A stretch of DNA of 8,857 nt from Candidatus Iainarchaeum sp. (GTDB lineage: Archaea > B1Sed10-29 > WALL01 > JAGHAM01), in NCBI GenBank assembly GCA_021161465.1, contig JAGHAM010000031.1, positions 1 through 8,857 on the forward strand, in the 5' to 3' direction. Positions 868 through 7,875 of the stretch are shown one piece after another. Numbering within the stretch: the stretch's first letter is position 1; each line of letters opens with the position of its first letter. Under the pieces are notes generated by a model, which saw nothing but the letters and a program-made list of their open reading frames with translations, made no database searches and was not told the origin of the DNA. The position numbers and the translations under genes are program-made.

Positions 868-3009
868 TCACTCGGGTGGTGGGCGGGGACCGTCAACTAT
901 ATCTACACAAACACAATAGGGTTTGGATGAATCTTTCTGTTTACATAAGTTATCTGCAATTGAGTTTTCAGGGTTGCACAAGATTATTAGTGGTGTATTC
1001 CCTTCGAAGAAACATGTATCCCCATAGTATGACTGGCCCCAACCTGCAGCTTGTGATGAGCATCTGCAGGCTATGGAAGCACCATCAGATTGACACCTCC
1101 CAGAAAAACAATCCTTGTTTGTACAAGTTTCGTTGCAATAGATATCAGCATCGAAACACCCCGGGTCACTTGGATCTGTTTTTCCGTTGCAATCGTTATC
1201 TACTCCATCATTACAATTCCCTGCTGCAATACTTTCCTCAGGCTTGCTGGTTCTCCATGCCCAGCTTGAACCATCGTATGTGCAGTAGTATGTTTTACCA
1301 CCACAGCTCTTGCTCTGGCAGTTTGTGTGCGAACTACTCGAACAAGTGTATGTAGTTCCAGCACTGCAACCACTAGCACTGCAGGTCTTCCCTGTTATGA
1401 GGGTGTTGGTGCCACATGAATCAGCAGTAGAGCAGGTGTTAGTGTAGTTCCACTGCCCAATGCTGCACGTCACACCATAATAGCAGGTAGTGCCTGCACC
1501 ACAGTAGCCATTTGCGCAATTGGTAGCACCACAGGTACACGAACCAACAGTAGTATCACCAGAGTAAGTGCAATCAGAGCAAATGTAACAAGTATTACCG
1601 GATATTCCTGTCGAATCAACCTGTTTGTCATCACACTCCTGGGACGCACCACATTGTGATTCGCACTCATTTGTTTCCTGATTTGAGCATGCACTTACAC
1701 CAGAACAGGATGCGCAGGAGAAACACTTACCAGTTTCACTATCACACTTGCCACTGCAACAATCAGAATCCTGAGTGCAGGTACCGCCATCGCTTGTGCA
1801 AGTTCCTCCGCAAGCAGGGTTCCCCGCACAGTCGGAGTCATCACAGTCTACAAAACTATCACAATCGTTGTCAATGTCATCTGTGCAGCTTACATCTGCT
1901 TCATTCCCAGTTGATGTATAATCTCCACATGAGCATGAACAGTCTGAACAATCTTTTGTAACTTCATTGCATTTTGCCGAACATGTGTCAGGATTGGAAC
2001 ATGTGTAGGTAGTGCAACTTGTGTTAGTTCCACAATCTGAGGATTTTGAACATGCTGGAGAACTGCACTTACCGGAGCAGCATATCTTACCAGTTCCACA
2101 TGAAGTACCATCAGCTAATGAATGATGTTTACAGTCACCACCATCACAGCTGTCTGATGTACACGGGTTGTTATCGTTGCAATCGGAGCTTGAAGAACAT
2201 CCCGTCCCTCCACTGCAATCAGAATCTTCGGAATGTGTGCAACCGGGTGGGCAACAGCCGTCATTGTCACCACAGTGCGGCCAGCTTATCTGACAAAAGC
2301 CTTTCACACAAAGGTCAATAGTACAATCATTATTATCGTTACAATCAGAGCTTGATTTGCATTGCCTGCAATCTTTATCAATTATATAATTACAACCAGA
2401 TGGGCAGCACCCATCCCCAGATTTACACTTAGACACGGCTGTGTGTAAGCAAGAAGTTTTGTTGTTACATTTATCCTCAGTGCATGGGTTTCCATCATCA
2501 CAATCTGAGTCAGATGAGCAAACTTGCACAGTACAATTCGCCACCTCATTTGGCTTTTTGTAAGTGGTGCCACAGTCATTCAAATCGGTGCAATTACGGG
2601 TTTGGATACCATTAACACATTCACCATAGTCTCCACAAGTCCAATTCTCTTCACAGGAAACAACCTGCTCCAAACCAACATCAACCATTTGCGCAATGCC
2701 CTGAGATACAGATAAATTCTCCCATTGTTCCTCATATCCAGGTGCTTTTGCGTAAACAAAGTAAGACCCCGAACTAACATTAAAATGGGCTACCCCACGG
2801 TCGTCCGTATTTGCCTCTGCGATGAGATTCTGGTTCAAATCATAAAGCTGGACTTTTGTCCCATTTAATGAGTGAAGCGACCACCTGTCATAAACCGCAA
2901 TATCGAGACCAGAACCCTCGTTGTTAGATAAAGTGGTATAAGCTACTATGCCAACTACTGCAGCAATTACTATCAAACCTAATATCAAAACTACAACTGG
3001 TGGTTTCAC
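868..3009 (-). CDS. Large secreted/anchored cysteine-rich modular protein
   Basis: This is a 713-residue protein that starts at GTG (3007-3009). Residues 5-24 are a strong hydrophobic segment followed by a long outside-type chain, so it is a signal anchor. Residues 33-115 resemble a carboxypeptidase-regulatory/PEGA-like beta-sandwich. Residues 119-159 resemble a thrombospondin-type-1 module (NWTCG, GIQTRNC, a later CGT). Residues 164-295 hold about two and a half copies of a 53-54-residue unit with the pattern SDC-DDxNPCTxDxC then DGCCPxGC. MopE-like acidic motifs (DNDC.....D..D..C) occur at about 375-394 and 599-618. Residues 411-430 have a knottin-like CC spacing. I count about 93 cysteines (13%), most likely disulfide-bonded outside the cell. 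No catalytic motif is seen. Adhesion, or metal binding by the DxDxD-type loops, is inference only. It is divergent from ileS and convergent with the left gene. Confidence 0.85.
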   Translation of the reverse strand: MKPPVVVLILGLIVIAAVVGIVAYTTLSNNEGSGLDIAVYDRWSLHSLNGTKVQLYDLNQNLIAEANTDDRGVAHFNVSSGSYFVYAKAPGYEEQWENLSVSQGIAQMVDVGLEQVVSCEENWTCGDYGECVNGIQTRNCTDLNDCGTTYKKPNEVANCTVQVCSSDSDCDDGNPCTEDKCNNKTSCLHTAVSKCKSGDGCCPSGCNYIIDKDCRQCKSSSDCNDNNDCTIDLCVKGFCQISWPHCGDNDGCCPPGCTHSEDSDCSGGTGCSSSSDCNDNNPCTSDSCDGGDCKHHSLADGTSCGTGKICCSGKCSSPACSKSSDCGTNTSCTTYTCSNPDTCSAKCNEVTKDCSDCSCSCGDYTSTGNEADVSCTDDIDNDCDSFVDCDDSDCAGNPACGGTCTSDGGTCTQDSDCCSGKCDSETGKCFSCASCSGVSACSNQETNECESQCGASQECDDKQVDSTGISGNTCYICSDCTYSGDTTVGSCTCGATNCANGYCGAGTTCYYGVTCSIGQWNYTNTCSTADSCGTNTLITGKTCSASGCSAGTTYTCSSSSHTNCQSKSCGGKTYYCTYDGSSWAWRTSKPEESIAAGNCNDGVDNDCNGKTDPSDPGCFDADIYCNETCTNKDCFSGRCQSDGASIACRCSSQAAGWGQSYYGDTCFFEGNTPLIILCNPENSIADNLCKQKDSSKPYCVCVDIVDGPRPPPE
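2125..2520 (-). repeat. In-gene tandem repeat of a cysteine module (period 159-162 bases)
   Basis: Within the cysteine-rich gene, residues 164-216 and 217-270, plus a partial third copy at 271-295, repeat the same cysteine spacing. Each begins CxSxSDC followed by an acidic Asn-rich loop and CTxDxC. The first two also share DGCCPxGC and end in DxDC. The DNA copies have diverged, so this is an old protein-level duplication rather than a recent DNA repeat. Confidence 0.75.
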
Positions 3010-6970: not shown

Positions 6971-6981
6971 ATTTATATATA
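6971..6981 (+). promoter_or_regulatory. TATA box and GGAGG ribosome binding site of the half-TBP gene
   Basis: ATTTATATATA lies about 37 bases before the ATG at 7013 and predicts a transcript start near 7002, leaving a leader of about 11 bases. That leader holds GGGAGG (7001-7006), six bases before the ATG. A second AT-rich match (TAAATATA, 6991-6998) is too close to the start codon to be the main box. Confidence 0.6.
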
Positions 6982-7012
6982 CGGCAAACATAAATATACA
7001 GGGAGGATTTAA

Positions 7013-7285
7013 ATGGAAAACAAATACAACGTCAAAATAGTTAATATGGTTGCATCTGCAAATTTGAAAGTCCAACTTGACTTGTTTGCTCTTGCTAAGA
7101 ACATAGACACCATAGAATATGAGCCAGAACAATTTCCTGGGGCAATACTCAAGCTGAGTGAGCCGCATGCATCCCTACTTCTATTTAAGAATGGTAAGGT
7201 AATATGCACTGGAGCTAGAAACGAAAATGAGATAAGGAAAGCTCTGGAAAGAACGACCCAGCTAATTTCAAAATATGCTACCTAA
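7013..7285 (+). CDS. tbp: Single-repeat (half-length) TATA-binding protein
   Basis: TBP bends DNA at TATA boxes and recruits TFB and RNA polymerase. Canonical archaeal TBP has about 180-190 residues made of two tandem copies of one fold; this protein has 90 and contains one. Recognisable in order: VNMVASANL (10-18, DNA-contacting strand with N11 and V13), QLDL, EYEPEQFPG (35-43), then LLLFKNGKVICTGAR (55-69) and a final amphipathic helix. The two phenylalanines that wedge into DNA in each TBP half (F41 and F58) are both kept, as are the glutamates of EPEQFPG near the TFB-contacting stirrup. The usual SGK is NGK. The TAA at 7283 is followed directly by another gene with its own ribosome binding site, so the second repeat is absent, not frameshifted. 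A homodimer would rebuild the saddle; that is inference. Confidence 0.9.
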   Translation: MENKYNVKIVNMVASANLKVQLDLFALAKNIDTIEYEPEQFPGAILKLSEPHASLLLFKNGKVICTGARNENEIRKALERTTQLISKYAT

Positions 7286-7305: not shown

Positions 7306-7875
7306 TTGGGTAAGATAGGGGAACTTGAGTTAATCAGCATATTGAGAAGTTATGGTATGAATTGTGAACACAATTTGAATCAGAAAAAAATAACTGACTT
7401 TATACCAGAAAGTGAATTAAAAACAGCCAACTACTGGCTAGATGAGAACAATAAATTACCCCGAAAAAGGCACACAATGGAAATAGACATATTTTCATGG
7501 AAAGAAAGCCATTGGGGCGCGCTTGCCATAGAGCAAAAAAGCCAGAACGGGAACCCAAAGACACTTGTTATTACAGAGGACCTCAGGCTGTACTCGAATA
7601 AGGTAGAGTTATGGAACGCTGGCAGGGAGTTATTCCTTCAGTGCAAAGGAGCAGGATATCTTGGTAGGGCTTTTGCATCGGTGAACCGTTTGAACACAGA
7701 AGTCATACCTGTTGGTGTGGTGGATTACAGCCTAAACGTATTTGGTACTCCCGCAAAATGGGTATTATATAATGGGGTATTCTTCGTTAACTCAAACAAC
7801 TTTGAAGAGTTTCTGGTGGCGTTCTTGGATAGGCGCAGCTGGGTGCATGATATAACCAGAAACAGGCTAACTTAG
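7306..7875 (+). CDS. PD-(D/E)XK nuclease-like protein
   Basis: A 189-residue soluble protein. I read it as a member of the PD-(D/E)XK fold from its motif order. An N-terminal helix GKIGELELISILRSYG (2-17) carries E6 and a glycine before the first strand. MEIDIFSW (58-65) offers D61. ALAIEQKSQ (72-80) offers the E76-x-K78 catalytic pair on the next strand, as in Mrr/Hjc/RecB-type nucleases that cut DNA with Mg2+. The C-terminal part (VIPVGVVDYS, WVLYNGVFFV) has two further beta strands and ends in a helix. No fused helicase or DNA-recognition domain is seen. The gene starts 20 bases after the half-TBP gene on the same strand with no TATA box between them, so the two are probably co-transcribed. 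Substrate is unknown; an inactive or RNA-acting relative is possible. Confidence 0.65.
   Translation: MGKIGELELISILRSYGMNCEHNLNQKKITDFIPESELKTANYWLDENNKLPRKRHTMEIDIFSWKESHWGALAIEQKSQNGNPKTLVITEDLRLYSNKVELWNAGRELFLQCKGAGYLGRAFASVNRLNTEVIPVGVVDYSLNVFGTPAKWVLYNGVFFVNSNNFEEFLVAFLDRRSWVHDITRNRLT

Follow-up and report, generated by a model that had tools for sequence, protein, structure and literature searches.

In this study we identified a TATA-binding protein (TBP) made of a single repeat in the window, by which we mean the whole stretch of 8,857 nucleotides analysed here, which is one contig of the source genome. Judging from gene content, conserved residues, and fused relatives, with structures predicted for single chains, we consider it likely (probability about 0.74) that this is a working single-lobe TBP that acts as a dimeric saddle and receives the direction of transcription from TFB and the BRE, family A being the housekeeping form and family B, to which the window gene belongs, a paralogue. 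Across archaea and eukaryotes, TBP has been described as a fused duplication, and its single-lobe origin has been deduced without a studied living example. Here, whole lineages appear to carry out basal transcription with single lobes, beside fused relatives that represent several stages of divergence, and the view that TBP arose when a half-size protein was duplicated, long taken for granted, becomes directly testable. The same holds for the timing and number of TBP duplications and for the question of whether transcription can be initiated by a symmetric TBP dimer if TFB and the BRE alone determine the direction.

The features of the window gene are collected in Table 1. Its open reading frame is complete, from ATG to TAA, and a profile search with the window protein gave one PF00352 match, covering residues 7-88 and profile positions 2-85 of 85; because this match scores 95.1 bits (E = 2.3e-27) against a curated cut-off of 22.9 bits, chance is excluded for the domain. 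The NCBIfam models of full-length TBP scored 61-89 bits against the same protein, with cut-offs of 181-347, and were covered over half of their length; the chain contains one such stretch alone and lacks two tandem lobes. A one-repeat TBP at this place had been proposed in a first-pass annotation, and both the complete frame and the single domain bear this out. Likewise, F41, F58, the VNMVAS strand (residues 10-15), and the EPEQFPG stirrup were all found where that annotation had placed them. It had also credited the gene with signals of its own, of which the GGAGG site and the stop codon are present; as for the TATA box, we infer that this role belongs to TTTATATATA, a candidate element that agrees with the genome-wide promoter motif TTTWWAWA. 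In at least three genomes (L002, L055, and L060), members of the family of the downstream 189-aa gene lie close to a family B TBP. A virus origin of the window gene was considered and rejected: a scan of viral contigs gave distant TBP relatives only, with 35-44% identity, and PHROGs gave no match. Elsewhere in the window, positions 868-3009 of the reverse strand encode a 713-aa cysteine-rich protein in which Cys motifs recur many times, which is apparently membrane-anchored at the surface.

Table 1. Features in and around the single-lobe TBP gene; positions are those of the window.
Feature	Position	Strand	Basis or remark
Single-lobe TBP, family B	7013..7285	+	90 aa, one PF00352 repeat
Codons N11-M12-V13	7043..7051	+	Strand S1; N and V conserved in almost every lobe
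Stirrup EPEQFPG, residues 37-43, including kinking F41	7121..7141	+	Lobe alignment
Codon of the second kinking phenylalanine, F58	7184..7186	+	Sequence and lobe alignment
GGAGG ribosome-binding site	7002..7006	+	6 bases upstream of the ATG
Candidate TATA element TTTATATATA	6972..6981	+	About 31 bp upstream of the ATG; 55-bp gap after the upstream gene
189-aa gene, no known family, TTG start	7306..7875	+	Downstream of the window gene

The structural comparison agrees with this assignment. AlphaFold2 predicted a confident TBP-lobe fold for the window protein (pLDDT 92.2, pTM 0.79), and a structure search matched the model to one lobe of solved TBPs with TM scores mostly of 0.80-0.90, the best three matches being single lobes of the human, Sulfolobus, and M. 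jannaschii TBPs (TM 0.87-0.88, 1.0-1.2 angstrom). A sequence search of the solved structures found no single-lobe TBP among them; every match covered two stretches. The window chain is predicted as a half-saddle, and a whole saddle was predicted for its fused relative G012, a natural tandem (pLDDT 91.7; TM 0.91/0.93 to the P. woesei TBP, 1ais), which suggests that two near-identical lobes of this clade fit together when fused.

Yeast TBP contacts DNA through N69, V71, F99, L114, F116, T124, and their C-lobe twins, and the lobe alignment shows the matching positions to be kept in the window protein, which retains N11, V13, F41, P42, L56, F58, and T66, with I64 in place of V. We take N11 and V13 to be the counterparts of the yeast minor-groove contacts N69/V71 and N159/V161, and the S1 strand in which they lie is expected to pair with a second subunit. 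The EPEQF stirrup is the C-lobe site contacted by TFIIB/TFB; it occurs in all 55 canonical C-lobes examined but in 25 of the 55 canonical N-lobes, and we found it in 51 of 52 single lobes and in all 48 lobes of the clade tandems; its sequence in the window protein, EPEQF as in canonical C-lobes, points to a TFB-binding stirrup. The positions that discriminate N-lobes from C-lobes are mixed in the single lobes (D23 is N-like and L57 is C-like), which agrees with the earlier remark that the window protein has traits of the N-half and the C-half of archaeal TBPs alike. The canonical archaeal TBPs (Pyrococcus woesei 1ais, Sulfolobus acidocaldarius 1mp9, and M. jannaschii 2z8u) have the lobe fold, the DNA-contact residues, and the TFB stirrup in common with the window protein and, like it, co-occur with TFB and BRE/TATA promoters, the fold being matched with TM scores of 0.80-0.89; however, the window protein has one lobe per chain instead of two, and its sequence falls outside the N-lobe and C-lobe groups. 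The N-terminal TBP-like domain of RNase HIII and the TBP-like domains of DNA glycosylases also hold a single copy of the fold, but they are parts of enzymes, whereas the window protein is a stand-alone chain of 90 aa; 8-oxoguanine glycosylase matched the window model weakly (TM 0.43, E = 0.2).

The closest two-lobe relatives are the near-symmetric tandem TBPs of Micrarchaeota and Diapherotrites (e.g., L038, L065, and L071), which have the lobe family in common with the window TBP but carry two fused lobes per chain, apparently from separate or homogenised duplications. In the two-lobe TBPs of G012 and G011, the halves are 79-80% identical, whereas canonical archaeal TBPs have a median of 49%. 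Three tandems (L065, L067, and L095) have a common linker pattern, Y-K-PP-F-KPKF, and some tandems show raised codon sharing between their lobes. In our lobe trees, built from 87 columns with no outside root, all the Micrarchaeota-Diapherotrites lobes lie outside the canonical N+C lobe group (100/100) and the canonical C-lobes form one group (100/98), so the descent of the clade lobes from a canonical C-lobe is disfavoured. The monophyly of the canonical N-lobes was not rejected (p = 0.45), and therefore the clade may join at the stem or near an N-lobe. The lobes of the clade tandems tend to cluster by protein family rather than by N/C position. Topology tests, whose p values are somewhat optimistic since the groups were partly picked after the first tree, rejected both the derivation of the clade tandems from one shared ancient (canonical) duplication with independent lobes (AU p = 0.0005) and the union of all single lobes in one clade (p = 0.026), and a single duplication within the clade was disfavoured (p = 0.015). 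The two-lobe TBPs of the clade look separately duplicated or homogenised; homogenisation of lobes could mimic repeated duplication, and the linker patterns and codon sharing hint at it.

Three origins had been named for the window protein in the earlier annotation: a relic of the state before duplication, a secondary split, or a specialised paralogue. The last of these holds in so far as family B is a paralogue, and the tree of single repeats suggested there sets the clade lobes apart from both canonical halves; the relic is not established by it, as a pre-duplication stem and a reduced, N-lobe-like origin are both compatible with the tree. We lean slightly towards secondary reduction, in which a two-lobe ancestor lost one lobe and the remainder was averaged for self-pairing and re-duplicated in some lineages, a reading that concerns origin and is compatible with a dimeric function. 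It is somewhat more likely than a relic because other DPANN archaea carry a canonical two-lobe TBP (L117, Woesearchaeota, and L125, Aenigmatarchaeota), whose lobes fall into the usual N-lobe and C-lobe groups. A junction near the canonical N-lobe, which the tree permits, and the high N-C identity and codon sharing of some tandems, a sign of homogenisation or recent duplication, are also consistent with a reduction, but the placement of every clade lobe outside the canonical group speaks against it, and a C-lobe source conflicts with the support for the C-lobe group. A descent of the single lobes of this DPANN clade without a break from the pre-duplication state is rather doubtful; in that case, the canonical and several of the clade two-lobe TBPs would be separate duplications of an ancestral self-pairing lobe. 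In one genome (G011:C8:9538-10695 and L037:1333-2463), a 726-aa frame contains four TBP repeats, and another TBP consists of two near-identical lobes followed by a long Lys/Ala-rich tail. The Vulcanisaeta sp. JCM 14467 record (L124) has its two TBP lobes in separate reading frames, probably because of a frameshift in the record.

A search of the rest of the genome for a full-length TBP had been proposed in the first-pass annotation. Our genome-wide TBP-domain search of the source genome (976 kb in 40 contigs, 93% complete, 0.17% contamination) found no two-lobe TBP; its TBP-domain genes are two, both single-lobe, namely the window gene and a family A gene on a different contig (C14), whose protein begins with MEVNFRIENILASANLNVELDLYAIAKARDNVEYEPEQFPG. 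Considered as the TBP of this genome, the window gene encodes a genuine one-repeat TBP, but it is neither the only nor the main one. The genome has one TFB gene, whose 300-aa frame contains two cyclin repeats. Across the 19 genomes of the class, the majority of TBPs are single-lobe, and only single-lobe TBPs occur in G001, G002, G006, G009, G010, G013, G015, and G016. The family A gene of the source genome adjoins genes for L21e and Rpo4, neighbours identified by sequence reading; the family is present in most of the class, with L21e, Rpo4, and a third shared gene beside it in 9 of 12 loci, and is best read as the housekeeping form. Upstream of one family A gene, positions 1797-1804 of L001 hold the perfectly palindromic TTTATAAA.

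Family B is one well supported group in the lobe tree (100/96) and is restricted to the order of the window, where other genomes carry homologues of about the same length in variable neighbourhoods, in contrast to the ribosomal and RNA polymerase surroundings of family A. It is possible, if unlikely, that the window protein is a regulator that tunes or titrates A or acts at few promoters, basal transcription being the work of the A homodimer. This contrast in distribution and neighbours would suit such a regulator, and so would the several relatives that have family A only and a B relative, L053 (G005), whose stirrup residues have diverged; on the other hand, the DNA- and TFB-contact residues are kept in B, and G004 has family B only, though this genome is 66% complete. 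Two family B TBPs, L061 and L055 (G005, G007), are extended at the N-terminus by roughly 65-130 residues that are lysine-rich and resemble a histone tail.

With respect to promoters, genes were called mechanically in about 340 kb of the source genome, and a motif search of the sequences upstream of them returned AAA-NN-TTTWWAWA, that is, an A-rich block, two bases, and then an octamer. The octamer is nearly its own reverse complement (asymmetry of 0.20 bits, against an information content of 5.25 bits; bootstrap mean 0.44), and the BRE-like A-rich block lies upstream of it only. Two single-lobe genomes (G157 and G147) and one tandem genome (G198) have a similar motif; no clear TATA motif was found with mechanical gene calls in two canonical control genomes, and palindromic TATA boxes may be no commoner here than in canonical archaea. 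One TFB gene and a genome-wide BRE/TATA motif accompany the single-lobe TBPs of the source genome. In canonical archaea, the orientation of the TBP-TFB complex has been established to depend on the contact between TFB and the BRE (review PMC7289017), and because this contact already orients the canonical complex, a symmetric TBP dimer needs no new principle.

According to the dimeric reading, two single lobes would associate along their free S1 edge strands to give the usual saddle, whose phenylalanine pairs would insert at both ends of the near-palindromic TATA box and bend the DNA. Such a saddle would present two equivalent stirrups, and one TFB would bind the stirrup that faces the A-rich BRE, in such a way that TFB and the BRE, rather than TBP, would give the promoter its direction. 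Homodimers of family A would serve as the housekeeping TBP, and the order-restricted family B would form B-B homodimers or A-B heterodimers, perhaps at a subset of promoters. The first-pass annotation had envisaged a homodimer with direction left to TFB: the direction fits the promoter motif, but for the window protein an A-B heterodimer is as possible as a homodimer. Where a genome has one single-lobe TBP gene, a whole saddle is possible only as a homodimer. We regard as improbable a monomeric half-saddle with the remainder supplied by TFB or DNA; one chain is indeed predicted to fold confidently alone, but this would leave the S1 edge exposed, the octamer found in the promoters has its full length and is nearly symmetric, and the recurrence in the clade of tandem forms with nearly all contact residues in both lobes suggests that two lobes are needed.

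Single-lobe TBPs are not confined to the class of the window. In the Micrarchaeota-type class, a larger second DPANN class, 101 of 107 genomes gave a TBP match; among the matches listed, and counting by frame lengths, 32 genomes have tandem TBPs and about 68 of the 101 have single-lobe TBPs only. Three genomes of one contig are included: G157 has exactly one TBP match, which is single-lobe, and G147 and G197 have two separate single-lobe TBP genes each. The source genome is a 40-contig draft, and the loss of a second repeat by assembly error was raised in the earlier annotation, but single-lobe TBPs of similar length in dozens of independent genomes, several of them single-contig, exclude this.

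That single-lobe versions of TBP exist in archaea has been stated, with citation of an earlier study (Ravarani et al. 2020, PMC7221094). The TBPs meant there are, like the window TBP, archaeal and of one lobe; the passage in question gives neither lineage nor role, whereas here single lobes account for every TBP found in whole lineages. Our literature search, which reached few subscription papers, found no report of lineages whose sole TBP is single-lobe, and the relevant passages of two DPANN surveys record TBP as present, with its form unmentioned. The earlier study behind the statement on single-lobe archaeal TBPs is said to be that of Brindefalk et al. 2013. Outside both classes searched, a 90-aa single-lobe TBP frame (G098:C38:27624-27869) is the sole match in a 94%-complete genome.
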